DNA of 64,000 nucleotides from Sabellastarte sp. h YS-2021. Its lineage: Eukaryota; Annelida; Polychaeta; Sabellida; Sabellidae. This document shows, in pieces, positions 2,053 to 64,000 of this stretch. The translations under genes and the position numbers were made by a program. The DNA lies in contig OZ024938.1 in assembly GCA_964017235.1 (NCBI GenBank), positions 56,721,816 to 56,785,815 of the forward strand. Direction: 5' to 3'. The notes beneath the pieces were generated by a model. The model had not been told where the DNA came from. It saw only the letters and a list, made by a program, of their open reading frames with translations, and did not search any database. Every line of letters starts with the position of its first letter. Position 1 is the stretch's first letter.

Positions 2053-3290
2053 TTTGACCTTGAAGGAGGGGCCCAAGGTCAAATCTAACATCAGAAAATT
2101 CCTAGCCCAAGATTTCGTATGAGTTGGTTTCGTACTGTAAACTTCTAGGATCAATAATAAGCGACTTTTAACTTTGGCTATTCTCGTTTGACCTTGAAGA
2201 AGGGGCCCAAGGTCAAATCCGACCACGCCAGAAGATTCCCAGCCCATGATTTTCTATAGGTTGGTTTACCATCCCAAACCTCTAGGACCAATATTAAGCA
2301 AGTTATAAGCACTTTTAACTTTGGCTGTCCTCATTTGACCTTGAAGAAGGGGCCCAAGGTCAAATCCGACCACACCAGAAGATTCCCAGCCCATGAGTTT
2401 CTATAGGTTGATTTACCATCCCAAACCTCTGGGAGCAATAATAAGCAAGTTATAATAAGCAGTTTTAACTTTGGCTCTCCTTGTTTGACCTTGAAGGAGG
2501 GGCCCAAGGTCAAATCCGACCACACAGAAAGATTCCCAGCCCATGATTTCCTATCTGTTGGTTTACCATCCCAAACCTCTAGGACCAATAATAAGCGAGT
2601 TATAAGCACTTTTAACTTTGGCTATCCTCGTTTGACCTTGAAGGAGGGGCCCAAGGTCAAATCCGACCACACCAGAAGATTCCCAGCCCATCATTTCCTA
2701 ATATGTTGGTTAGTGTTGGTATCGAATAATAATATGTATATCGATATCAAACCATATTTTTGCTTCTGTATCGATCGATATTGAAATATTGGGTCATGGC
2801 TGTTTTCCGAGAAAGAGCTTCCAAACCCTTTCATGAGTTTAGAAGTTTCCCGAAACGTAAACAAATGTGGCGCTTCCGGTTTAGCGGTAAGTGAAATTTG
2901 ACAAAAAATGATAGGAAAACCAATATATTTCTTAACTTTTATACCGGTATGTTATTTACATGGAAAACAGCTTAATTGCATCTATTTAGTAGTATGTTCC
3001 GATATTGATATTGTACCCTACATTATCGATATCAGTATATTTGGCATGGATCGATAAATATTTCAATAGCGATAAACAATACCAGCACTAATGTTGGTTT
3101 ACCATCCCAAACCTGTAGGACCAATAATAAGCGAGTTATAAGCACTTTTAGCTTTGGCTATCCTCGTTTGACCTTGAAGGAGGGGTCCAAGGTCAATTCT
3201 GACAACATCAGAAGATTCGCAGCACATGATTTCCTATAGGTTGGTTTCACATTGTAAACCTCTAGGACCAATAATAAGGGAGATATAGGC
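2053..3290. repeat. ~147-bp tandem array with paired TGACCTT…AAGGTCA sites
   Basis: Units begin with TTTGACCTTGAAGNAGGGG near 2053, 2187, 2334, 2484, 2631 and 3167; the gap before the last is the inserted element at 2711-3090. Each unit continues through AGATTCCCAGCCCATGATTT, CCATCCCAAACCTCTAGGA and CAATAATAAGCGAGTTATAA. Each has an inverted pair TGACCTTGAAG / CCCAAGGTCA around a GGGGCCC core, so it carries two nuclear-receptor-type half-sites. Small ORFs across the array on both strands are repeat artefacts. Confidence 0.9.
2711..3090. mobile_element. 380-bp hAT-like MITE nested in the 147-bp array
   Basis: Ends are TAGTGTTGGTATCG at 2711 and, on the opposite strand, TAGTGCTGGTATTG ending at 3090. 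An exact 8-bp direct repeat, ATGTTGGT, flanks it at 2703-2710 and 3091-3098, and removing the element restores a normal unit of the surrounding array. The interior is rich in ATCGATAT-type steps on both sides, so the transcript or single strand could fold. It is younger than the element at 1647-3769 that hosts it. Confidence 0.9.
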
Positions 3291-3777
3291 ACTTTTAAAG
3301 TCGGTTATGTGGGTAACTTCGGCACTTCGTGGATGACCTTGAATTAAGTGCTTCAAGGTTAAATGTGTGCAAGGTTGTAGAGGACATGTATATCTGTTAT
3401 ACATATCACCTATGAAGAGATTCAACCTTCTACCTATGAGAAACAGCCAGTAGGAAAATGTCAATTATTTTCAAAGAAATGCCCATGGCGGCCATCTTGT
3501 TTTTCAGAATGAGGCTATTTTCCTTCCCAGAGAAGCTTAATTACCCCCCAATGAAGATATCCTGCAAATAGCTGCTGTCGTTTTCCTCTTAGAGCGTTAA
3601 CGGCGAAAATCTCTCTACGCGCGGCGGCGTAGCAAACGCTAAACCAAAGTATCCATCGGATGCTTCCGGTGGATACAATAACCGATCATTAGAAAACGTC
3701 AGTGACCGACTGCGATTCTACACTCTCACCGACGATTAATCGACAATACGTCTAATCGCCACACCACTAGTTTTTAG

Positions 3778-7418: not shown

Positions 7419-8139
7419 AGACGGGAACCAGCCACCTTTAACAATAAAGGGACTGGTATCGGCCACGATGGCCTTGACATACATCATTGCTAGCCATCAT
7501 TATCGGGAAATCTCGATCATTATTTTAATTGCTTATATGCTTTTTGTATGTATTTACAACATTTTAAACATTTATTATTGAAATTATAACATCAAATATT
7601 GTGAATTAAACTTTAAAATATTTTGAAATGACAATAATGTTTAGAAGCAAATACATGTTTGGGTGATAATAGAAGATCGACAGCACTTAAACTGGCATCC
7701 TCACGCGGGATTGCTTTTCCTCGAAAACAAACCCTCACAGAAACCGCGAGGAATGCTGGGAGTAAACAAAGAACTACTTTTCAACAAGGAAGTGATTTCC
7801 GTATCATGAAAAATGCTCAAAATAAATGTTTTCTGTCATAACACATAGCCTTCTTAATTTTTCTAACAAACATACATATGGATCTATAGACTAGTGATTT
7901 TTTACCCTGAAAATGTTACTTAAAGTGTTGTTTCTAGTCTTCTTACATGGGCGAAAATGGAGTTTTTAAACCAGTAATTATGCTACGATTTTTAATATGG
8001 TGATCCGTGGATTTTTCTTGCTGTTAAACCTGTATAATTGCTTTGAAGATTGTCACAAATAATTTTTCAAAGTAAAATAAATTTTATGAATGTAAATTTA
8101 CGTATATTTGTTCCCAAAATTCATTACAATTTGCTACAA

Positions 8140-9640
8140 TGCTGAAAAAAAAACATTGATAATGCATGAGAGTAATAAAAATTAATGAAAAAAAAAATAA
8201 CATTAAAAGACGTTTTAACAATAATAATGATTAATTTCAATTCTGTGTGTACATTTAACAAATGCTTTGTAGGATTTTGAAAATTATTAATATTATTTAT
8301 TTTATTATTTATTTATTTTATTTTTTTTATTTTTATTTTATTTTTTTTTTTGCATTGGAATTATAATTTTTAACAACCAAGGATTATATACAAAAATGTT
8401 ACTTTCAGTATGTATTCTGAAAATGATCTTTTAGCATTTTTTATTTTGTAAAAATAACATTTGTTTAAGCATTTAAAAAAATTAGTACAGTGATAAGCCC
8501 GACTTACACAACAACCCCAGATGCCAGAGTTTTTTTTTACATTTTTGTACTGGTTGGCTGAGATGCTCATTAACCAGCATACATTAGCTCTGGGTTATAA
8601 TTTTTTTTTAAAATATTACCAATCAAAGTGTAATTGGGCTTGGAACCACAATGAAATTTAAATTTTTCAAGTATATTTAAAACATAGATATGTAACATAA
8701 AAATTAATATATAAAGCAGCAATAAATTAACATAAAACATAGAATTAGCTTAGTTACTGAAAATTAAACATATCTCACATTCTCTTAAATAATAAAAAAA
8801 TCTCATGCTTCTTCATTCAACTGCGATGTCTTGTCATTATAGATAGATACCAAGTGTTGTAAGCTTTAAAATGGTATATTAGTAAAATATATTTTAGAAT
8901 GGAAATTCATTAAAATTTACTAGAAAGCTGCAAAAATTATTGACAATAAATGAGAATAATAAAAAATAACATTGAAGATATTTTATTAATAATAGTAATA
9001 ATAATAATGGTTTATTTCAATTCGTATCTATACATGCAAAAATTTAACAAATTCTTTATAGAATTAAAAAAATTATTAATATAATTTTTATTATTTATTT
9101 TATTTCATTTTTTTGTTTTTTGTTTTGTTTTGCTTTGAAATTATATGACAACTAAGTAATATATACAAAAAACGTCAACAGTAATAAATGAAATACACAA
9201 AAAAGCTGTATGGAATTATGCTAAAAATTAAACATAAATAGCAAAAAGATGTCTCATAAAAATTTCAACACAATACAAAATGCAATAATTAAGGTTTCTA
9301 AAAATTATTTAATAGTTTGCCTGCAACATTTTAGCCAAGCATCAATTTCCGATAATATTTTCCATATGCTTATAGTTGATTCTCTTAAGTTAGAATTTAT
9401 TATAGGTTACATTATTGTATACAGACATCTAAAATATTTGTTTCCAGTATAAAATATGCATGTCCAGTGTAGAGGATATCAGATTTTGTTGAAGTTAGAT
9501 AAGGAAAAATATTTACACGACTAGGTAACTTGTGACCAAAAATTCACGTTTTCTCTCCACTTAAATGGCATGAGTAACCACCATATATAGATGCTACGTG
9601 TTGTAAGCTTTAAAATGGTGTATTACTTGTCAAAATCGAG
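8140..9640. repeat. Imperfect ~750-790-bp tandem duplication, AT-rich
   Basis: Two blocks recur in the same order. The first, near 8150-8400 and again near 8935-9175, runs from a TGANAATAAT core through GGTTTATTTCAATTC-like sequence and a T-rich tract to ATTATA…ACAACYAAG…TATATACAAAAA. The second, near 8848-8885 and 9592-9630, contains GTGTTGTAAGCTTTAAAATGG. Copies are diverged. A small 67-codon ORF at 9249-9452 looks like chance. Confidence 0.65.
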
Positions 9641-13722: not shown

Positions 13723-13909
13723 CACACCCGCGGCAGCCAAGTCTTCAGGAGTCTATTCCAGGGTCCAGGTATTGGTTTCCTCTCCAGATGTTTATGGTAA
13801 GGTCTCTTTATATTTTTAACTGTATAATGTATTTAGTGTTTGCCAGTGTACCAAAATGTCATATTTAGGGTGGCAAAATTGATGAGATTCAAGCCTAGGG
13901 CTGTATTAT
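13723..13909. other. Spacer between DIRS remnant and nested repeat complex
   Basis: Unrecognised sequence with no credible coding or repeat structure. Confidence 0.4.
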
Positions 13910-14094
13910 TATATCCCCAGACGAAAGTCGGGGATATATTGGATTCAGGTCCGTCGCGCCGCCGCCGCCGTAGAAATTTCCTTGTGGATGCGATAACTCA
14001 AAAACGGATTAATATTTTTTTTTCAAACTTGGTACACATGTTAAGGATGCCCAAAGGAAGATCCCTATTTTAAGGTGACCTTAAACTCCCAATA

Positions 14095-15780
14095 ATAAAG
14101 AACTTATGGCCACCTTAAGGTCAGAAATTGCACTTTTGGCCACTTAGAGCCCTCTAGGTCACAAACTATGAGGCTTATCTGCCTCAAATTTTACCTGAGA
14201 ACACATTAATATATTCTTAGTACATGTGCCGAAAATCAAGACTTTAAGTTGAGGAGAAAATTGTCTTTGAGGCCCATAAAGACCCCACTTAGGACTTTTT
14301 TCCTATATTTTTAACTTATTTTGCCCTATAATTTGGACGTGGTAATTCTGATGAGTCTCAAACTGCACTAGATGTAACTCTTATATGTAATCCTTGTCTG
14401 TGAAAAATTTAAAGGCTGTAGGTTTACCTGTTAGGCCGACTTAAGATCTCAAAATTGCCCACAGAGACCCAATTTATGGACTTTTTGCCATCTTCAAGCA
14501 CTGTAGCTTTCAAACTATGTCTCTCATCTAAGTGAAATATAATCTGAGAATATATCAATATGTTTTTCTTGTATGTACTCCAAAATTTAGGCCTTTAATA
14601 GACATTTAACCCATGTATGAGGACCATAAACACCCACCCGAGTGACCCTTTTAAGACATTTTTCACATATTTTGCTCTGTAACTTGGAAATGGTAAGTCT
14701 GAGAAGTTTCAAACTGTATTAGATATATATTCTATGTGTAATGTTAGTATGTAACAGATTTTAAGTCTGAAGCTTTAATTTGAAGGTCAAATTGAGGTCT
14801 CTGACGGGCTCCCAAAGACCCAATATATGGACTTTTTGCCACCTTTAAGCCCTGTGACTGTTAAACTATGTTATTGATGGAGCTGAAATCCCATCTGGGA
14901 ATGCATTATTATGTCCTTTTTACATGTGCCGAAAATCAAGGCTTTAAGTAGACATTTAACCTGTGTTTGAGGACCATAAATCCCCACCCGAGTGACCGTT
15001 TTTAGACATTTTTCACATATTTTGCCCTGTAACTTGGAAATGGTAAGTCTGAGAAGTTTCAAACTGTATTAGATACATATTCTATGTGTAATCTTAGTAT
15101 GTGACAAATTTTAAGTCTGAAGATTTAATTTGAAGGCCACATTGAGGTCTCTAAAAGGCCCCATAGAGACCCAATATTTGGACTTTTTGCCAGTTTTAAG
15201 GCCCATGACTGTTAAACTATGTGACTGATAGAGCTGAAATCTCATCTGGGAATACATTATTATGTTCTTTTTACATGTGCCAAAAATTAAGGCTTCAAGT
15301 AGACGTTTAAACTGTGTATGAGGACCATTAACACCCACCCGAGTAACCGTTTTAAGACATTTTTCACATATTTTGCTCTGTAACTTGGAAATGGTGAGTC
15401 TGAGAAGTTTCAAACTTTATTATTAGATACATATTCTATGTGTAGTCTTAGTATGTAGCAGATTTTAAGTCTGATGCTTTAATTTGAAGGCCACATCGAG
15501 ATCTCTAAAAGGCCCACAGAGACCCAATATTTGGACTTTTTGCCACCTTTAAGCCCTGTGACTGTTAAACTATGTGATTGATTGAGCTGAAATCCCATCT
15601 GGGAATGCATTATTATGTCCTTTTCACATGTGCCAAAAATCAAGGCTTTTAGTAGACATTTAACCTGTGTATGAGGGCCATAGACACTTGCCCAAGTGAC
15701 CTTTTTTGACATTTTTTTCTGTATTTTGCCCTGTTATTTGGAAATGCTTAGTGTGACAAATCTTAAACTGTATTATATAT
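14095..15780. repeat. ~352-bp tandem array, about 4.8 copies
   Basis: The marker CTTTTTGCCA recurs near 14481, 14832, 15183 and 15536, giving a 351-353-bp period. Units share AGCTGAAATCYCATCTGGGA, CATTATTATGTYCTTTTTAC, AACTTGGAAATGGTRAGTCT and GAGACCCAATAT. The first unit is more diverged than the later three, which are close to one another. The array is cut off by the insertion at 15787. Confidence 0.9.
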
Positions 15781-15873
15781 AATTTTTACCCCACAGCCCT
15801 TAATGGCTGTTGGGGTATTGTTTTCACCCATGGTGTCAGGATGGTCGGGCGGGCGGGCGGCGGGAAATAGTTT

Positions 15874-16845
15874 GTCCGGGCTGTATCTCAGAAACCGTAA
15901 GGTGTAGGAAGTTGATACTTGGTAGGGACATTGGTTAGGGGGTGTAGCTGTGCAACGTCATGGTCTGACCTTGATTTGACCTTTGACCTTGCCGTAGTGA
16001 CCTTGAGTTTGAAAATCTTGTCCGGGCTATATCTCGGAAACTGTAAGGTGTAGGAAGTTGATACTTGGTAGGGACATTGGTTAGGGGGTGTAGTCGTGCA
16101 ACGTCATAGTCTGACCTTGATTTGACTTTTGACCTTGCCGTAGTGACCTTGACCTATAAAATCTTGTCCGGGCTATATCTCGGAAACCGTAAGGTGTAGG
16201 AAGTTGATACTTGGTAGGGATATTGGTTAGGGGGTGTAGGTGTGCAACGTCATGGTCTGACCTTGATTTGACCTTTGACCTTGCCGTAGTGACCTTGACC
16301 TATAAAATGTCCGGGCTATATCTCGGAAACTGTAAGGCTTGGGAAGTTGATATTTGGTAGAGACATTGGTTAGGGGGTGTAGGTGTGCAACGTCATGGTG
16401 TGACCTTGATTTGACCTTTGACCTTGCCGTAGTGACCTTGACCTATAAAATGTTGTCCGGGCTATATCTCAGAAACCGTAAGGTGTAGGAAGTTGATACG
16501 TGGTACGGATATTGGTTAGGGGGTGTAGGTGTGCAACGTCATGGTCTGACCTTGATTTGACCTTTAACCTTGCTGTAGTGACCTTGACCTATAAAATCTT
16601 GTCCGGGCTTTATCTCGGAGACTGTTAGGTGCAGGAAGTTGATATTTGGTAGAGACATTGGCTAGGGGGTGTAGGTGTGCAGCATCATGGTGTGACCTTG
16701 ATTTGACCTTTGGCCTTGCCATAGTGACCTTGACCTATAAAATCGTCAGGGCTGTATCTCGGAAACCGTAAGGTGTAGGAAGTTGATACTTGGTAGGGAC
16801 ATTGGTTATTGGCTATAGGTGTGTATTATCATGGTGTGACCTTAA
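15874..16845. repeat. 146-bp tandem array carrying DR1-type half-site pairs
   Basis: GTCCGGGCT-type starts fall at 15874, 16020, 16166, 16309, 16455, 16601 and 16745. Each unit contains TATCTCGGAAACCGTAAGG, AAGTTGATACTTGGTAGGG, ATTGGTTAGGGGGTGTAGG and a cluster of AGGTCA half-sites on the minus strand. TGACCTTTGACCT (a perfect direct repeat with 1-bp spacing) is intact at 15977-15989, 16269-16281 and 16412-16424 and mutated in other units. TGACCTTGACCT (adjacent half-sites) also occurs in most units. Diverged relatives lie at 26630-26830 and 34560-34866. Confidence 0.92.
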
Positions 16846-17199
16846 TTAAGCGTCCCGCAAGGGACGCTTGTTTGTGTATGGGAGAGCTTCAGGCTCCGCC
16901 GGCTCCGCATTTTGTTTTCCTTATAACTCTGTAACCGTTAGGCGGATTCTTTTCAAATTTGGCAGGTTTAGGCAGTAACCTTGGGGAATTTTTTTGAATA
17001 TGCTGCAGTGACATTTCAACCAATCAGAGAGGTCACATGACCAAAAATGTCTTTTTTCGATGGGGAAGCTTGTCCGGATGATAACTTGAAAGGAATTTTA
17101 TCAATTCACCTGAAACTTGGCAAATACATTCATTCTATTAAAATCTGGAAATCATTAGATTTTGGCATTGATTGGTCAAGAAATGGCCGAGTAATTAAT

Positions 17200-17838
17200 G
17201 ATTAATTAATCATTATGAATTTTCCAAATAAGGAAAACACAAAAATGCTTATATCTCGAAAACCGTGCTAGATAGAGCAATTTCGACGAAATTTTTGACC
17301 CGCAGGGTATCTCTGCGGAGTAGTTTTCCCAATTTTCAAAAAAATTTTGTCTCACCCAAAATGGCGGCCATTTTGAATTTTCGAAATTTTCGCAAAAATT
17401 GCAAAACACAAAAATGCTTATATCTCAAAAACCGTGCTAGATAGAGCAATTTCGACAAAATTTTTGACCCGCAGGTATCTCTGCAGAGTAGCCATGCCAA
17501 TTTTCAAACAAAAAATTTCTCGCAAAAAATGGCGGCCATTTTGAATTTTCCAATTTTTCGCAAAATTGCAAAACACAAAAATGCTTATATCTCGAAAACC
17601 GTGCTAGATAGAGCGATTTCGACGAAATTTTTGACCCACAGGGTATCTCTGCAGAGTAGCCATGCCAATTTTCAAAAAAATTTTGTCTTGCCAAAAATGG
17701 CGGCCATTTTGAATTTTCGAATTTTTGCGCAAAAATTGCAAAACACAGAAATGCTAATATTTCGAAAACCGTGCTACATAGAGCGATTTCGACGAAATTT
17801 TTTATCTTCAGGGTATCTCTGCAGAGCAGCTATCTGAA
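17200..17838. repeat. ~167-bp tandem repeat, left block
   Basis: GGCCATTTTGAATTTTC recurs near 17367, 17534 and 17702. Each unit has AAAACACAAAAATGCTTATA, TCTCGAAAACCGTGCTAGAT and GGTATCTCTGCAGAGTAG. More copies of the same unit appear at 19680-19935, on the other side of the 133-bp array. Confidence 0.9.
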
Positions 17839-17839
17839 A

Positions 17840-19580
17840 GAGCTTTCACTTGGTGAAGTTTCAGACCCATAGCTAATTGCTCACCTACTCAAAAAGAGTA
17901 AATGCGAATTACCTCTAAAAGTATTGCAGATGGCCAATTTTTCTCAAATAACTCATTCACCTACTTTTGGAAGAGCTTTCACATGGTGAAGTTTCAGACC
18001 CATAGCCAATTACTCACCTACTCAAAATGAGTAAATGCGAATTATCTCTAAAAGTATTGCAGATAGCCAATTTTTCTCAAATAACTCATTCACCTACTTT
18101 TGGGAGAGCTTTCACATGGTGAAGTTTCAGACCCATAGCTAATTATTTACCTACTCAAAATGAGTAAATGCTAATTATCTGTAAAAGTATTGCGGATACC
18201 CAATTTTTATCAAATAACTCATTCATCTACTTGTGGGAGAGCTTTCACATGGTGAAGTTTCAGACCCCATAGCTAATTACTCACCTACTCAAAATGAGTA
18301 AATGCGAATTATCTCTAAAAGTATTGCAGATAGCCAATTTTTCTCAAATAAATCATTCACCTACTTTTGGGAGAGCTTTCACTTGGTGAAGTTTCAGACC
18401 CATAGCTAATTACTCACCTACTCAAAATGAGTAAATGCGAATTATCTCTAAAAGTATTGCAGATAGCCAATTTTTCTCAAATAACTCATTCACCTACTTT
18501 TGGGAGAGCTTTCACTCCGTGAAGTTTCAGACCCATAGCTAATTACTCACCTACTCAAAATGAGTAAATGCGAATTATCTCTAAAAGTATTGCAGATAGC
18601 CAATTTTTGTCAAATTAATCATTCACCTACTTTTGGGAGAGCTTTCACTTGGTGAAGTTTCAGACCCATAGCTAATTACTCGTCTACTCAAAATGAGTAA
18701 ATGAGAATTATCTCTAAAAGTATTGCAGATAGCCAATTTTTCTCAAATAACTCATTCACCTACTTTTGGGAGAGCTTTCACTTGGTGAAGTTTCAGACCC
18801 ATAGCTAATTACTCACCTACTCAAAATAAGTAAATGCGAATTATCTCTAAAAGTATTGCAGATAGCCAATTTTTCTCAAATAACTCATTCACCTACTTTT
18901 GGCAGAGCTTTCACTTGGTGAAGTTTCAGACCCATAGCTAATTATTCACCTACTCAAAATGAGTAAATGTGAATTATCTCTAAAAGTATTGCAGATAGCC
19001 AATTTTTCTCAAATAACTCATTCACCTACTTTTGGGAGAGCTTTCACTCTGTGAAGTTTCAGACCCATAGCTATTTATTCACCTACTCAAAATGAGTAAA
19101 TGCTAATTATCTGTAAAAGTATTGCGGATACCCAATTTTTATCAAATACTCATTCATCTACTTGTGGGAGAGCTTTCACATGGTGAAGTTTCAGACCCAT
19201 AGCTAATTACTCACCTACTCAAAATGAGTAAATGCGAATTATCTCTAAAAGTATTGCAGATAGCCAATTTTTCTCAAATAACTCATTCACCTACTTTTGG
19301 GAGAGCTTTCACTTGGTGAAGTTTCAGACCCATAGATAATTATTCACCTACTCAAAATGAGTAAATGTGAATTATCTCTTAATAGTATTGCAGATAGCCA
19401 ATTTTTCTCAAATAACTCATTCACCTACTTTTGGGAGAGCTTTCACTTGGTGAAGTTTCAGACCCATAGATAATTATTCACCTACTCAAAATGAGTAAAT
19501 GTGAATTATCTCTTAATAGTATTGCAGATAGCCAATTTTTCTCAAATAACTCATTCACCTACTTTTGGAAGACCTTTCAC
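17840..19580. repeat. 133-bp tandem array, about 13 copies
   Basis: GAGCTTTCAC lies at 17840, 17973, 18106, 18239, 18373, 18506, 18639, 18772, 18905, 19038, 19170, 19303 and 19436, with a degenerate last start near 19570. Units read through GTGAAGTTTCAGACCCATAG, CACCTACTCAAAATGAGTAA, TCTCTAAAAGTATTGCAGAT and TAACTCATTCACCTAC. Units at 18106-18238 and 19038-19169 share the same variants (TGCTAATTATCTGTAAAAG, TGCGGATACCC), hinting at a multi-unit duplication. Confidence 0.95.
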
Positions 19581-19679
19581 ACACGAAAATGAAAAATTGT
19601 GAATGTCTCGGAAAAGCTATTTCTTCTGCTTTAATGCTCGGCGGGAGATACACACCACGGCAGTGGTGTTGACAAAAAT

Positions 19680-19935
19680 TTTTGTCTCCCCAAAATGGTG
19701 GCCATTTTGAATTTTCAAAGTTTTTGCAAAACACAAAAATGCTTATATCTTGAAAACCGTGCTATATGGAGCGAACTCAACAAAATTTTGGACCTGCTGG
19801 GTATCTCTGCAGAGTAGCCATGCCAATTTTCAAAATATTTTTGTCTCGCCAAATATAGCGGACATTTTTAATTTTTTTATTTTTTGCAAAACACAAAAAT
19901 GCTTATATCTTGAAAACCGTGCTAGATAGAGCAGA
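19680..19935. repeat. ~167-bp repeat, right block
   Basis: One and a half more units of the 17200-17838 family, recognisable by TGGCCATTTTGAATTTTC, AAAAATGCTTATATCTTGAA and GGTATCTCTGCAGAGTAGCC. The 133-bp array therefore sits inside, and probably amplified within, a 167-bp array. Confidence 0.85.
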
Positions 19936-20075
19936 CTGCGCTGACTTTGGTTGCCACAACAGTATAAGGCTAGAAACGAAGCATTTTCTTAATACTTTAG
20001 CACTCATCTTTATATCCTTTTCGGGACGCTTGTTTTTGCATACATTATCTTTTTTTTTTGCGAGCGATCCTCTAG

Positions 20076-20112
20076 TTTGACCTTTTACCTTGCCGTAGTG
20101 ACCTTGACCTTT
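20076..20112. repeat. Resumed tail of the interrupted 146-bp unit
   Basis: TTGACCTTTTACCTTGCC followed by GTAGTGACCTTGACC continues the unit broken at 16845. Confidence 0.88.
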
Positions 20113-20629
20113 AAAATCTTGTTGCACCTTTGGGTCTGTCTTTTGATACAGATTAAGCAAAAGTCATATTAGAATTTATTAAGAATTTTACTTTCATAAC
20201 TTCCCATTGTAAGAGATAGAATTTCATCAAGTGAGCCGCAGATTTTACTCCAACACCACACATAAGCATTCATTAAATGTATTACCACTTCTGTATGCAT
20301 GGTAATATTCAAACCATCTAAACCATAATTCGGAAATGCAGATGTATATAAAGAGTGTTGAATTTTAGTTTACTGATTAATGCTGTCATCTTGTCATTGA
20401 ATTTAATACTTCATCTTTATACGCATTATCTTTCTTTTAAACATTATTTCTCCATTTAAACATTGTTTGGACCTTTATATAACTGACAGTGCTCTGAAAG
20501 TATCCTGAAGTTTGTACTGGTACAGTACTTCTATATCTCATGGTGTTGAAAATATTTCCCAAGGCTGTGGGGTACGGGTATCTCTGATGCTATTTTTTTG
20601 TTTGTTGTGTATGCCCCCCAAAAAGTTTC

Positions 20630-20755
20630 AGTTCTGTAGTTTAATTGCTAAGGTCTCTTTAACAATTGTAAAATGCCCACAGAGACCCAATTTATGGATA
20701 TTATGCCACTTTAAAGCCCTGTAACTGTCAAACTATGTGGCTCATAGAGCTGAAA
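20630..20755. repeat. Resumed partial 352-bp unit
   Basis: GCCCACAGAGACCCAATTTA, a GCCACTTTAAAGCCCTGTAA block, TCAAACTATG and AGAGCTGAAAT match, in order, the array that stopped at 15780, most closely its first unit near 14450-14530. Confidence 0.8.
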
Positions 20756-20760
20756 TCTTT

Positions 20761-21311
20761 GAATTTTTCAAAGAAAGTGCCTGTCTATTTAAATTTTGAA
20801 TATTAATAATGTTATGGCTATCTTAGGCTTTTAAGAACTTATTTTTGTGTGTTATCTCTCTGCTTGCTGAGTTTTTAACTTTTTAATATGAAACTGGTTA
20901 AACATATTCAAGTAGGCAAAATGGACACTGTTATTTTGTGGTGAGCTTTAAGGCCCAAATATTAATGAAATTATAGCCTTATGTAGTAAAAATAGGGGAT
21001 TTTTAACCCTCAACTAGCCCAGTTTTATTCAACTTGCCTTAATACAGTTACGAACAGTTACGAACTCATTTCAATTGATAATCACATACTTAAAATTCTC
21101 AATTCTGAATTATTATTATAAATCTGTTCTTGTCGTTTGATAATTTATATTTAATTCTGGAGGTATATAATCTTCCTGTTGGACATTCCTTATTTATATA
21201 TTTGATTTTATTTTAGTGATAAGATTAACTGAGCTTTTTGTATTTGATTACCCCTTTTATATTATAAGTGTTTGTTTACCATTTGTGCTGCAGCACTCCA
21301 TCTCTTTGTAG
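20761..21311. other. AT-rich intergenic DNA, nothing recognised
   Basis: No paired termini, tandem repeat or plausible coding sequence. Confidence 0.4.
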
Positions 21312-21450
21312 TCCCACCCCCCATCCCCCACCCACCTCTGGGACCTCCAGCTATTGAGTGACACTAAATAAACAAAGGTATACAGATCTTCTGTAATAGT
21401 GAGAGAGGTGTGGAGAAGGGGAGAGAGGTGGGGTGGGGGTGGGAGGTGGT
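21312..21450. repeat. Imperfect inverted C-rich / G-rich tract pair
   Basis: CCCACCCCCCATCCCCCACC at about 21313-21332 faces GAGGTGGGGTGGGGGTGGGA at about 21424-21443, ~90 bp apart. The two could pair, and each could alternatively form a G-quadruplex or i-motif on the appropriate strand. Confidence 0.65.
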
Positions 21451-21630
21451 GTTTGCTTCATTATCTAATTATCTAAGACAAAGGGAGTCAGAACTGAGAT
21501 TGTGTCACATATTTAGGTTGCATATATATGGACCACATATATAGGAATTGAGGAAATGAATAACTGAAAAACAATGCAAATTCTAAAAATAATGTAATAA
21601 AATAATAATATAAATAATATGTGATTTTTA

Positions 21631-21943
21631 AATAATATTTTATTTGTGAACAAATATAGAAACAGAGATACGCTTTTGGAATTATGAATTTAGAATGGAC
21701 ATTCAATCATCAATCATTTAAATACTTTGAAAATAGGTTCAGAGTTACCCTTTGCAGGAAGATTGAAAAGTATGATGAGTTGAGTTAAAAATAATATTTT
21801 ATTTGTCAACAAATATAGAAACAGATATGCTCTTTTGAGATTATTAATTTAGAATGGACATTCAATCATCAATCATTTAAATACTTTGAAAATAGGTTCA
21901 GAGTTATCATTGCAGGAAGATTGAAAATATGATCTGTTGAGTT
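21631..21943. repeat. 158-bp tandem duplication
   Basis: Copies start at 21631 and 21789 (AAATAATATTTTATTTGTNA). They share GAATGGACATTCAATCATCA, ATCATTTAAATACTTTGAAA and TGCAGGAAGATTGAAAA, with few substitutions and a couple of 1-2-bp indels. Confidence 0.92.
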
Positions 21944-22350
21944 ATGTATTCGACGTCTGGGGATACACCATCTTCCTTGGGAAGATATAAACTTAGTAGA
22001 TTGATGTGCTGAAGTTCATATAACTTTTCCCAATATTTATGGCATGCAACAAATGGATTAAATAAAAAATTCCCAATCAAAACGTGTGGCGTGAGTGATG
22101 ACCTGTCTGGGGATATTTTGGCGCCGAGTTGGCCCAATCTAGTTATAACAATGGGGCCCTTAGGGGCTACTACCTTGAGTGAGCTCGGCTGCACTCTCTT
22201 CTTTCAAAACATCCAGACAGTACCCATACTCTCATTCATTAAATTTCAGTTTTTGGCTACTTGCAGACCCGACTTTAGAACTGGGGCTCAGTAACTGGGA
22301 CTTAAACTGGTAATTTGGCAATAGTTTGGTATATTTTTAAATTCTAAATT
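21944..22350. other. Unrecognised DNA
   Basis: A 95-codon frame on the minus strand (21907-22194) and a 67-codon frame on the plus strand overlap here; neither resembles a known family. The minus frame runs into the 158-bp duplication, which argues against a gene. Confidence 0.35.
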
Positions 22351-24339: not shown

Positions 24340-24835
24340 GTTATTGTATCCACCGGATAAGTTCTTATAACTCGCTTATTATTGGTCCTAGAGGTTTGGG
24401 ATGGTAAACCAACCGATAGGAAATCATGGGCTGGGAATCTTTTGGTGTGGTCGGATTTGACCTTGGACCCCTCCTTCAAGGTCAAACGAGGATAGCCAAA
24501 GTTAAAACTGCTTATAACTCGCTTATTATCAGTCCTAGAGGTTTGGGATGGTAAACCAACATATAGGAAATCATGGGCTGGGAATCTTTTGGTGTGCTTA
24601 GATTTGACCTTTGGGCCCTCTTTCAAGGTCAAACGAGGATAGTCAAACTTAAAAGTGCTTATAACTTGCTATTATTGATCCTAGAGGTTTACAATGCGAA
24701 ACTAACTCACACAAAATCTTTGGCTAGGAATCTTCTGATGTTAGATTTGACCTTTGGTCCCTCCTTCAAGGTCAAACGTTGGTTCACTGGCTATGGTGAG
24801 ATGTCTTTCCGATGTGTAGGTCTAGTTTTTCCTAT
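24340..24835 (-). mobile_element. Rearranged internal copy of the 1647-3769 element
   Basis: Three units of the ~147-bp repeat lie in reverse orientation (TCCTTCAAGGTCAAACG near 24472, 24621 and 24762). On the right come the single-copy sequence next to the array at ~1975-2050 (TTCACTGGCTNTGGTGAG, GTAGGTCTAGTT) and on the left GTTATTGTATCCACCGG, found near 3669-3684. Large deletions and missing TIRs make it a non-mobile fragment. Confidence 0.85.
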
Positions 24836-31250: not shown

Positions 31251-31367
31251 TAACAGCCACAGGAAAGCAAGTTCACCCAGGCTGACTTCATAGGAGAACA
31301 GCTGGAGGGTACCGGAGTCACTAGAAAAGGTGATTCCAATATTGAGATTCTTGCACCCACATTTACA

Positions 31368-31931
31368 ATGGTGGCTGCAAGAGAACAATGTCCTTACAGG
31401 CCAACCATTACACCCAATAAAACATGCTCTGCAATCTTTACAGATGCATCAAAAGAAGGGTGGGGCGCTTGCATAAACGAACGCACTGCAAGAGGCACCT
31501 GGTCCCTTCCGGGAAGTAAGTTGCATATCTATTACTTAGAACTCAAGGCAGTCTTTCTAGCCTTACAAGAGTCCCAAGACCTCTGCATACACAAAATAGT
31601 AATTGTAGAGACAGACAACACCACAGTGGTGTCATACATAAACAAGGAAGGAGGCAGGAAGTCGGGCCCACTTGGGGCTCTACTATGGAGAATCTTGACC
31701 TGGTGCACCAGAAATCAAGTGACTCCCAAAGCCCGACACATTCCAGGCCTTCTGAGTGTGGTAGCAGACAAGCAAGCTATCTGGGCTAGGCCAGACCATC
31801 TAAATAGTGGTCTCTCCTTCAGGAGGTCTTCCAAGCAATATATGCAGCAGGTGGCATTGGCCTCAAATAGATCTAGGGGCCACAGGCTCAACAACAAGTT
31901 GCCTTTGTATCTCCGGCATCAGATTCCCTGA
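31368..31931 (+). pseudogene. DIRS RNase H and start of linker
   Basis: RNase H would remove the RNA strand during cDNA synthesis. All four acidic active-site positions are present: D in FTDASKEGWG (~31437), E in LELKAVFLAL (~31537), D in ETDNTTVVSYINK (~31611) and D in VVADKQ (~31759). After the last block the reading frame drifts away from the expected LSRL sequence (KQAIWARP), and the linker resumes in another frame from 31940 (MDALSLPWEDLEAYAFPP). The frame is open for 187 codons, unusually well preserved compared with the rest of this element. Confidence 0.9.
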
Positions 31932-33670: not shown

Positions 33671-34440
33671 TTTGTGTTTTTCCCTTATATCTCCTTTATT
33701 CTTGCTTTTAGAGTTTTAGAATGTATTAAGAGGTATTGGGACACCATATGTGAAGAGTCTAGATAGCCGGTCAGATTTACCCCTGACCCCCAACCCCTTA
33801 TTGGTCAAACTGGAGTCATAAAATAGCCCATTATGTGTTTTTGCCTTAAATCTACTTTATTCTTGCTTTTACAGCTTTAGAATGTATTAAGAGGTATTGA
33901 GAGACCTTATGTGACGAGTCTAGATAGCTGGTCAGATTTACACCCTGACCCTCCCTTCTGGGTCAAACTGGGGTCATAAAATAGCCGGTTTTGTGTTTTT
34001 GCCTTATATCTACTTTATTCTTGCTTTTAGAGCTTCAGAATGTATTAACAGGTCCTGGAAAACCTTATGTGAAGAGTCTAGATAGCGTTTACCTCCTGAC
34101 CCCCCCATTATGGGTCAAACTGGGGTCATAAAAAAGCCGATTTTGTGTTTTTGCCTCATATGTCCTTTGGATTTTTGCTTTTACAGCTTTAGAATGTAAT
34201 AAGGGGTAGTTAGAATTCATGGAGAGTCTAGGTAGCTGGTCAAATTAGCCCTCTGTCTCCCTCTTATGAGTCACACTGGGGTCATAAAATATCAATTTTC
34301 CTGTTTTTGCCTCATACCTTCTTTATTATTTGTTTTACAGCTTTACAATTTTTAAGAGGTATTGGAAAACCATACGCGGGGAGTCTTAATAGCTGGTCAC
34401 AGTGGGGTCATAGATTGCAATTTCTACTTTAATATTTCAA
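33671..34440. repeat. ~158-bp tandem repeat, five diverged copies
   Basis: Units start near TTGTGTTTTTGCC at about 33671, 33832, 33990, 34142 and 34299. They share CTTTATTCTTGCTTTTA, AGNTTTAGAATGTATTAAGA, GAAGAGTCTAGATAGC and CTGGGGTCATAAAATAGCC. Divergence rises towards the right end. The array starts directly at the DIRS 3' terminus, so the DIRS element may have inserted into or beside it. Confidence 0.88.
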
Positions 34441-34559: not shown

Positions 34560-34866
34560 AGACCTGTAGTATGACCTTGCCATACTGACCCTCGTTTGAA
34601 AATCTTTTCTGGCTATATCTCTTAAAGCAAAAGTTGTAGGATATTGATACTTGGTATGGACATTGGTTCGTGGGTTTAGGTGTGCAATGTCCTGATGTGA
34701 CCTTGCTTTGACCTTGCTGTAGTGACCTTGATCTTTAAATCTTTTCCGGGCTGTATCTCGGAAACTGTAAGGTGTAGGAAGTTGAAACAGAGTAGGGATA
34801 TTGGTTGAAGGGTGTAGGTGTGCAACACAACATGTAACCTTGATTTAAGCTTTGACCTTGCTGTAG
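34560..34866 (+). repeat. Diverged copy of the 146-bp DR1-bearing repeat
   Basis: About two units: GACCTTGCTTTGACCTTGCT, GTAGTGACCTTGA, GGGCTGTATCTCGGAAACTG, TAAGGTGTAGGAAGTTGA and GGTGTAGGTGTGCAAC, in the same order as 15874-16845 and in the same orientation. Confidence 0.88.
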
Positions 34867-35034
34867 TGATCTTCTTGTCTGGGCCATATCCTAGGAACAG
34901 TAAGGAGTAGAAAGTTTATTCTTGGGTATGGGTAGCTTTGTGTAGCTTTGTGATCTTCTTGTCTGGGCCATATCCTAGGAACAGTAAGGAGTAGAAAGTT
35001 TATTCTTGGGTATGGGTAGCTTTGTGTAGCTTTG
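34867..35034. repeat. Exact 84-bp tandem duplication
   Basis: TGATCTTCTTGTCTGGGCCA…GTGTAGCTTTG occurs at 34867-34950 and again, identically, at 34951-35034. It is a variant of the adjoining 146-bp family (GGGCCATATCCTAGGAACAG corresponds to GGGCTGTATCTCGGAAACTG). Identity implies a recent event, or an assembly duplication. Confidence 0.95.
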
Positions 35035-35225
35035 AAGTGATATTTTTAATCAAATCCCCAAAGGGAAGCCATCTTGAACCTATCACAAACCTATCTCTTT
35101 ATACTATCCTAATCTTTTTTTATCACTGACCCGTATGTTTCGGATTGAGATGGCTTCTTTTGACATTGTATTACTTTCAGAGAGAGAATTAGATTCACTA
35201 TTTTCAAATCTTTTCATACTTCACT

Positions 35226-62758: not shown

Positions 62759-64000
62759 CAGATTGACCCACTTTAAGGGGTGTTTTGGGCTGATTTGGCA
62801 TTTTATGAATCTCTCGCCAACTACACTCCCTTAACCTGCACTTTGGGCTAGATGTGAATTTCTCAAACAACACACTATTAAAATTCACTTCAGTGGCGAC
62901 TCCTGTAGGAAACAATATGGTTTTCAACCTTGAATCTACCTTAATTGAGAATATATCAGCATTTCCTGATACAGCCACCTGTGGCTGTATTTTGGCCTTC
63001 CTGGACCACATATGACGCATATGACACCACTGGTATACCAGATGTAATCCTAAAACCTATGCAATCAGATTTAGTGCATGGCAAGTGATTTTTGGGCCAA
63101 ATTTCAGACTTATAGACCAATATTTTGTACTGGTTTGGGCTGATTTACATCTATTTTTGGCTGTTTTTACAACATTTCTTGGGTGTAATAATTTCTGATC
63201 AGACATGTAATGCTCCAAATGCGCCTAAAATATCCTCAATAATTATTAGAATAAGCATGAAATTAAATGTGGGCTTCATATTGGCAATATTATGATATAT
63301 TTGACATTTACCACCTGAGGGTGGGTCATAGGGCCCCCCACACCCCGGAAATTGAAATTTTTAAAGTGTCCCTCGAGTTGGCCAGCTCAATACAAATTCA
63401 TTCTCTGATATAAATTGAGTTTCCTGTGAAAATTTCAGCCATATTGACCCACTTTAAGGGGTGTTTTGGGCTGATTTGGCATTTTATGAATCTCTCGCCA
63501 ACTACACTCCCTTAACCTGCACTTTGGGCTAGATGTGAATTTCTCAAACAACACACTATCAAAATTCACTTCAGTGGCGACTCCTGTAGGAAACAATATG
63601 GTTTTCAACCTTGAATCTACCTTAATTGAGAATATATCAGCATTTCCTGATACAGCCACCTGTGGTTGTATTTTGGCCTTCCTGGACCACATATGACGCA
63701 TATGACACCACTGGTATACCAGATGTAATCCTAAAACCTATGCAATCAGATTTAGTGCATGGCAAGTAATTTTTGGGCCAAATTTCAGACTTATAGACCA
63801 ATATTTTGTACTGGTTTGGGCTGATTTACATCTATTTTTGGCTGTTTTTACAACATTTCTTGGGTGTAATAATTTCTGATCAGACATGTAATGCTCCAAA
63901 TGCGCCTAAAATATCCTCAATAATTATTAGAATAAGCATGAAATTAAATGTGGGCTTCATATTGGCAATATTATGATATATTTGACATTTACCACCTGAG

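Follow-up and report, generated by a model that had tools for sequence, protein, structure and literature searches.

A nest of three satellite-bearing, probably Helentron-like elements in the genome of the annelid Sabellastarte sp., with natural empty sites

Tandem arrays of several unit lengths lie one inside another in a stretch of 64,000 nucleotides (hereafter the window) from Sabellastarte sp. h YS-2021 (Sabellidae, Polychaeta), which corresponds to positions 56,721,816 to 56,785,815 of the forward strand of contig OZ024938.1 (assembly GCA_964017235.1). An element with a 352-bp array, here called E1 (13909-22142), is interrupted by E2, an element with a 146-bp array (15788-20592), and E2 in turn is interrupted by E3, which carries 167- and 133-bp arrays (16846-20075); all three are read on the forward strand. 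Tandem Repeats Finder (TRF) reported arrays of period 351 (14195-15779), 146 (15872-16847), 168 (17234-17830) and 133 (17839-19580) in the nest, and both interrupted arrays resume on the far side of their inserts, the 146-bp type at 20076-20122 (44 of 47 positions identical to the 146 unit) and the 352-bp type at 20626-20757 (102/130 identical to the 352 unit). This order of interruptions, together with the resumption of each array, had been proposed in an initial annotation made from the letters of the window, and it is borne out by the TRF arrays, the resumed pieces and the empty sites described below. The end of the nest, which had been placed at 20760, has to be moved, as the outermost E1 runs to 22142 and finishes with CCCAATCTAG. 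Element ends were defined by means of copies elsewhere in the same genome (1.786 Gb in 647 contigs).

E1 measures about 3.43 kb without its insert (15788-20592). It begins with TTATATCCCC and a 5' hairpin (13910-13938; z -4.3 for the fold as single-stranded DNA, ssDNA), inside which lies a 12-bp asymmetric terminal inverted repeat (ATIR), ATATCCCCAGAC; a GC-rich, microsatellite-like stretch recognised by eye (13950-13973) and the left part of the central 352-bp array (14195-15782, TRF) follow. Beyond E2 the element resumes with the last, partial 352 unit (20600-20757, array part 20626-20757), which is nearly identical in the copies with an empty site, and it closes with the 3' ATIR GTCTGGGGATAT (22105-22116) and a terminal part (22118-22142) made up of a palindrome at 22118-22137, whose fold is weak (z -1.4), and CTAG at 22139-22142. 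At the 5' boundary 39 other E1 matches begin no more than 8 bases from the end of E1, and the flank reads T-W-A-T in 38, 40, 35 and 38 of 40 cases. The 3' end could be located in 14 of the 20 fetched copies and is CTAG followed by TT in every one of these 14; in the other six it was missing or lay beyond the fetched stretch. The E1 hairpin pattern was found at 7,949 places genome-wide (one mismatch; reversed-pattern control 0). Two of the 20 copies (L038 and L046) break off at the same E1 position, equivalent to 20935 of the window.

E2 lies in a T-run of E1 and is 1.88 kb long when intact (L053); the Ts at 15783-15787 and 20593-20599 are not assignable. Its 5' hairpin with a 12-bp ATIR (15788-15816; ssDNA fold z -5.0) is followed by a GC-rich stretch seen by eye (15845-15864) and the left part of the 146-bp array (15872-16845, TRF), while the last unit of the array (20076-20122), recognised by its identity to the unit and by the empty site, is found beyond E3. 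The right end (20563-20592) comprises the 3' ATIR (20563-20574) and a 3' palindrome (20578-20590), weakened here and intact in fetched copies. All 40 scored matches, taken from 1,882 candidates and including the window, begin at the base equivalent to 15788, and 11 of 11 fetched ends finish with GATGCTATTTT. Among 31 insertion flanks T stands at -5, -2 and -1 without exception, at -4 in 29 and at -3 in 28. The hairpin pattern of E2 and its close kin occurs at 14,443 places (one mismatch; control 32). One E2 copy (L125) starts immediately past the 3' end of an E2-like element, in head-to-tail arrangement.

E3, the innermost element, has the form TT...CTAG (16846-20075) and stands in the last E2 unit, at TTAA|TTT. 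It begins with TTAAGCGTCCC and possesses a 5' hairpin, AAGCGTCCC-GCAA-GGGACGCTT (16848-16869; ssDNA fold z -6.1), a GC-rich stretch of the type GGCTCCGCC, the length of which varies among copies (16893-16912), and a 167-bp array, whose left part extends from 17220 to 17833 (TRF) and whose repeats reappear at 19674-19933. The right end (20022-20075) consists of the 3' ATIR (20022-20031), a palindrome that has lost bases, and CTAG (20072-20075); in 10 of 10 fetched ends CTAG is followed by TT. Of 40 scored matches, 30 begin at the first hairpin base, and the hairpin pattern is present at 8,764 places (two mismatches; control 0). The target reads TWA|TT, with C in place of W in 4 of 28 flanks. 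The 133-bp array (17839-19580, TRF) lies within the 167-bp array and is absent from a compact E3 in L039; inspected by eye, it displayed neither a hairpin nor CTAG ends of its own that would make it a fourth element, and it may represent array capture.

A layout of hairpin, GC-rich stretch and satellite-like core had been predicted for all three elements, with the hairpins at their boundaries, and both predictions held: each 5' hairpin, formed by the ATIR and a downstream inverted repeat (IR), folds better than all of 200 shuffled sequences, the cores are TRF arrays, and the boundaries recur in the matches counted above. A reading in which the hairpins are 3' ends on the minus strand was rejected, because the CTAG or palindrome ends stand on the right.

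Natural empty sites were found for both inner insertions. Four E1 copies (L034, L036, L037 and L038) are uninterrupted at the E2 site, where they read ...TATATATAA|TTTTTGTTTGTTGTGTATG, and E1 of the window agrees with L034 in 1849/1870 positions to the left of the insert and 1519/1535 to the right (98.9% and 99.0%). Likewise, the intact E2 in L053 is uninterrupted at the E3 site, GGTGTGACCTTAA|TTTGACCTTTTACC, and the joined flanks of the window read the same; identity between the two amounts to 296/300 on the left (last 300 bp) and 512/517 on the right (98.7% and 99.0% over the stretches compared). Because these empty sites match the joined flanks, E2-in-E1 as well as E3-in-E2, the resumed units are the split halves of the interrupted arrays, and single-copy identities of 98.7-99.0% indicate that the copies are young. 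That the resumed 352 unit might be unrelated, being only 78% identical to the 352 unit, was ruled out by E1 copies elsewhere, since L003, L005, L006 and L007 have nearly the same last unit and this identity is hence normal. The E3 empty site equals the joined flanks exactly if the element TT...CTAG is set between A and T, although a T|T placement fits as well, as Ts stand on both sides. For E2 the number of flanking Ts differs (5 on the left, 7 on the right, 5 in the empty site), so that the exact cut is not fixed. Apart from these unassignable Ts, no target-site duplication (TSD) is present at the two empty sites.

The insertion order, E1 before E2 and E2 before E3, can thus be read from the empty sites directly, and the element ends from the copies elsewhere. 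It is extremely improbable that the interruptions were produced by array capture, recombination or an assembly error instead of transposition: the 133-bp array, in which HINE ends were not seen, may be a capture, but the breakpoints of E2 and E3 are those at which dispersed copies end and at which the empty sites lie, which contradicts capture for these two. We regard it as highly probable, at about 0.88, that three different non-autonomous families of Helentrons (the Helitron2/HINE group) inserted into each other in succession, E1 entering the chromosome, E2 entering E1 and E3 entering E2.

The assignment to this group follows from structural marks. According to the available parts of the literature, the 5' ATIR of Helitron2 elements folds into a hairpin, and their 3' ATIR lies immediately before the hairpin of the other end (Bao and Jurka, 2013, PMC3627910); HINEs are described with a microsatellite, central tandem repeats, a preference for T-rich sites and no TSD (Vojvoda Zeljko et al., 2020, PMC7492417; Thomas et al., 2014, PMC4067079). 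In E1-E3 the ATIRs of 12, 12 and 10 bp, respectively, were reached by 0/1000 shuffles each (pieces from the window and L053), and a 3' palindrome lies between the 3' ATIR and the 3' end, with z -3.6 in E2 copies and -3.5 in E3 copies, present though weak in E1, and damaged in the window's own E2 and E3. The GC-rich stretch lies in the left flank (by eye) and the arrays are central (TRF); insertion without TSD took place in T-rich sites, a T-run for E2 and TWA|TT for E1 and E3, where T|T and A|T are indistinguishable. Since these marks of Helitron2/HINE elements are present in all three, a Helentron-like design is concluded. Of the marks of canonical Helitrons (Helitron1), 5'-TC is absent, the 5' ends being TT (E1, E3) or a T-run (E2), whereas the 3'-CTRR end and the A|T target fit E1 and E3 (CTAG, TWA|TT) but not E2. 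The earlier proposal of a single Helentron-like superfamily would have this shared design as its basis; kinship among E1, E2 and E3 did not emerge, as no BLAST match was obtained among the three at 1e-3.

The ends of E1 and E3 invite a second classification, in which both would be non-autonomous and proto-Helentron-like (5'-TT, CTAG-3', A|T target) and served by another Rep than E2. Their TT...CTAG ends and TWA|TT target set them apart from E2 with its T-run ends, and proto-Helentron-Pi is described with 5'TT, 3'CTAG and entry between A and T in the accessible text of Thomas et al. (2014, PMC4067079). However, all three elements possess ATIRs and a 5' hairpin, features not found in Helitron1 by the definition given in the part of Bao and Jurka (2013, PMC3627910) at hand, and 5'-TC is lacking throughout; the proto-Helentron assignment is possible, if somewhat unlikely.

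Several observations weigh against placing the three elements among the Helentrons. The CTAG ends and A|T entry of E1 and E3 are unlike those of TT-targeting Helentrons as portrayed in the accessible parts of the published descriptions. The 3' palindrome of E1 is weak, with 19/200 shuffles folding as well as that of the window and 21/200 as well as the type found in copies (z -1.3 to -1.4). In L034 the ATIR has only 11 bp, reached by 3/1000 shuffles, and in L074 9 bp (1/1000), the latter in a piece one base short, the base being present in L074. Furthermore, 10 of the 40 scored E3 matches stop short of the first hairpin base. Finally, no Rep/helicase partner could be linked to E1-E3 among the 24 matches to PF14214 (Rep domain) in the genome, as judged from 1.5-kb flanks at 1e-6; such an autonomous relative was what the initial annotation had suggested looking for. 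Hits in these flanks came from two loci only: the Rep frame of a Helitron-like element in L012 contains an E1 directly past the HLH motif (HRGSPHLHC), and in L025 E2-like and E3-like stretches stand beside a broken Rep domain. L012, L014, L015 and L017 form one protein family by eye, L014 and L015 with long frames, that of L015 open over 2,245 codons. As a partner this family displayed no matching ends within the part read, and the 2.5 kb upstream of L015 hold no ends of E1-E3.

The site of E3 in E2 is used repeatedly. The E2-unit site CATGGTGTGACCTTAAT has 3,613 occurrences genome-wide, counted with a pattern that shuts out sites filled by E1 or by a further family, E4. A 5' end of the type AAGCGTCCC stands exactly at that E2-unit base at 26 places, and an E1 end at the same base pair at 5 places, L050 among them, which were counted separately as the pattern for the 26 places could not match E1. 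Among eight sampled of the 26 places, four hold E3 and four hold E4 (L192, L193, L194 and L198), which has the terminal TTAAGCGTCCC, the first 11 bp, in common with E3 and differs thereafter; the window is a fifth E3. Around 100 listed CATGGTGTGACCTTAAT sites contained no E3, with fewer than one expected from the count of 26. Given the number of copies and the target motif, the 3,613 sites should hold about 1.4 E3 and 2.1 E1, E4 not being counted. P is 0.013 for the five E3 observed, 3e-9 if 13 E3 are extrapolated, and 0.058 for the five E1; as the patterns for the 26 and 5 places do not require CATG, the number of sites available is somewhat above 3,613. This base of the E2 unit is thus used above average by E3-type ends, and by three families in all, a usage that is rare in absolute terms, with less than 1% of such sites filled. 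In two loci (L044, L139) an E1 lies about 94 bp into E4-like sequence, at the same place in both.

Fewer events than places would be needed if E2 carrying E3 had been copied as a composite. The 52 bp of E2 beside E3 agree between L199 and the window, and L073 runs on into the same E2 unit, though both are weak hints, because the last unit of the intact E2 in L053 is the same. Composite copying is very unlikely, as four of the eight sampled places hold E4, eight of the nine E2 flanks (the eight sampled and the window) are distinct, only L199 agreeing with the window, and each of the five E3 rows resembles some E3 copy elsewhere more closely than it does any other E3-in-E2 row. A one-clade test (approximately unbiased test, p-AU 0.026) pooled E3 and E4 rows without E4 from elsewhere and says little on E3 alone.

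Whether inner elements prefer arrays of related elements in general, a Rep complex being steered to the units of relatives and not to any TWATT or T-run, was approached by broader counts. Altogether 101 left flanks (40 E1, 31 E2, 30 E3) were compared with E1-E3, the 147-, 158- and 84-bp units of the window and its large satellite. Matches reached the junction in 5 E1, 8 E2 and 4 E3 flanks, the E2 and E3 totals each including the nest of the window and the E2 total also the head-to-tail case L125, which is no nest; the E3 rows L158 and L159 are misoriented and the E1 row L150 is weakly placed. Without the three flanks of the window, 15/98 matched this whole library as against 23/400 random 100-mers, which came from 20 loci of 2 kb, four of them hit. 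Flanks in or against E1/E2/E3-like DNA numbered 10/98, two of them at 72.6 and 73.3% identity, versus 6/400 random (1.5%); the expected share has an upper bound of 4.6%, were every hairpin a full-length element, and the binomial chance of 10/98 is 2e-6 at 1.5% and 0.013 at 4.5%. E3 starts inside 4/20 E1 copies, where 0.34 were expected (Poisson 4e-4), its far side being fetched in L039 only, where about 0.54 kb of E1 beside the insertion are missing. Of the same 20 E1 copies, two lie in E2, with both sides seen. Conversely, 0/28 usable E3 flanks lie in E1. Both samples, E1 copies and E3 flanks, were picked for top identity.

These counts point in different directions. The ends at one E2-unit base pair (26 of E3 type, 5 of E1, with mostly distinct flanks), the four E1 copies with E3 and the 10/98 flanks argue for steering. 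Against it stand the small share of E2-unit sites filled, the conflict between 0/28 and 4/20 (in three of the four the far side of E3 lay beyond the fetched stretch), the whole-library comparison with its random hits in 4/20 loci, and the E2 array, which is poorer in TNATT sites than average; selection against insertions elsewhere would likewise leave a surplus in repeats. A short E2-unit motif is suggestive only: in the E3 left flank and in the 84-bp unit its score exceeds that of every one of 200 shuffles, in the units of 167, 352 and 158 bp it is equalled by 1 to 5 of 200, and it was not found in the remaining targets. A general steering to relatives is possible, if somewhat unlikely, and of the earlier suggestion that these elements repeatedly target the arrays of relatives the recurrent use of one base pair persists, while the broad counts disagree. 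Flanks of E1 (L140, L143, L151), E2 (L118) and E3 (L166) were also observed in 147- or 158-type arrays.

A second feature of E3 concerns the hairpin loop. By eye, the loop is reversed in 16 of about 100 copies listed (TTGC in 14, TTGT in 2), the others having GCAA (76), ACAA (7) or GTAA (1); TTGT and ACAA may have arisen by CpG decay of TTGC and GCAA. A tree was calculated from 10 reversed and 10 other listed copies, to which the window and four E3 copies found at E1 loci were added. It is poorly resolved and requires four changes, and a single clade of reversed loops was not rejected (p-AU 0.159); one reversed-loop copy, L178, is identical to the E3 left flank of the window over 299 columns. 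Among about 100 E1 hairpins listed no inverted loop was found, and the E2 loop, being nearly palindromic, is uninformative. A literature search on hairpin-loop inversion yielded one paper, which to judge by its title deals with Tc1-Mariner elements.

As to mechanism, each element would have been moved in trans by a Rep/helicase recognising the ATIR ends, one strand presumably being copied, beginning at the 5' end and stopping at the 3' palindrome, and then joined at a short A/T-rich target, a T-run for E2 and TWA|TT for E1 and E3. E2 entered the T-run near the end of the 352-bp array of E1, and E3 the last 146-bp unit of E2. Arrays are interrupted because the families are abundant and their target motif is also present in repeat units; the E2-unit base pair is used more than the average site, and the reason was not found. 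A farther-reaching idea is that several Helentron families lacking sequence kinship share a preference that steers them to single base pairs of each other's satellite units, as with E1, E3 and E4 at one base of the E2 unit, and that in at least one family the terminal hairpin becomes inverted (loop GCAA to TTGC) during or after transposition, which would be left over from a fold-back or cruciform step in the rolling-circle cycle, at its 5' end. Taken as a whole, this idea is speculative and rather unlikely.

Comparable elements are known from bivalves, and the following comparisons refer to the parts of the papers available. Cg_HINE of Crassostrea gigas (Vojvoda Zeljko et al., 2020, PMC7492417) likewise has a subterminal inverted repeat (subTIR) with a complementary IR and a microsatellite, a central satellite-like array, sometimes two, and a 3' subTIR with a palindrome; it likewise occupies T-rich sites without TSD, some copies being inserted in other repeats, and in that part of the text no autonomous partner was linked to it. 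It differs in units of 140-180 bp on average, against 352 bp in E1, a comparison by description and not by sequence, and in the CTAG ends and TWA|TT entry of E1 and E3; the word 'nested' does not occur in its text. Helitron2 (Bao and Jurka, 2013, PMC3627910) and DINE-1/HINE/Helentron (Thomas et al., 2014, PMC4067079) follow the same plan of ATIR, 5' hairpin and 3' hairpin, and their TT preference is that of E2, whereas E1 and E3 combine this plan with the TT...CTAG, A|T ends of proto-Helentron-Pi (PMC4067079). By description, the Pearl elements CvA, CvE and CvG of bivalves, which PMC7492417 and PMC11136912 mention, are similar in having short arrays (about 160 bp). Nested, 'shuffled' Helitron/satellite loci of oysters (PMC12628747, PMC11136912) likewise contain elements and arrays inside other elements; beyond these, the present locus offers empty sites at base-pair level for a three-level nest and a count at one unit base. 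HINEs with satellite cores as well as their nesting are hence already in print for bivalves, and E1-E3 are further families of that type.

Elsewhere in the window, a long satellite block extends from 36777 to the window end at 64000, with TRF rows about every 684 bp, 22-bp sub-repeats and, in part, 287-bp duplicated segments. Further arrays of 147, 158 and 84 bp (2052-2711, 3093-3308, 24359-24778, 33671-34399, 34848-35047) may be the cores of other such families. A reverse transcriptase/RNase H fragment at 31254-31931 (RVT_3, E 1.5e-7) was the sole Pfam match among five frames of the window.

In this nest the insertion of satellite-bearing rolling-circle elements into one another can be followed at base-pair resolution and compared with empty sites that occur naturally. 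With about 31,000 hairpin places of three families in one genome, target choice and array breakage are testable from sequence alone, and by way of loop inversion so is the 5'-end step of Helentron transposition. Even if site preference and loop inversion should both fail, E1, E2 and E3 would still be a well-defined addition to the known HINE families.

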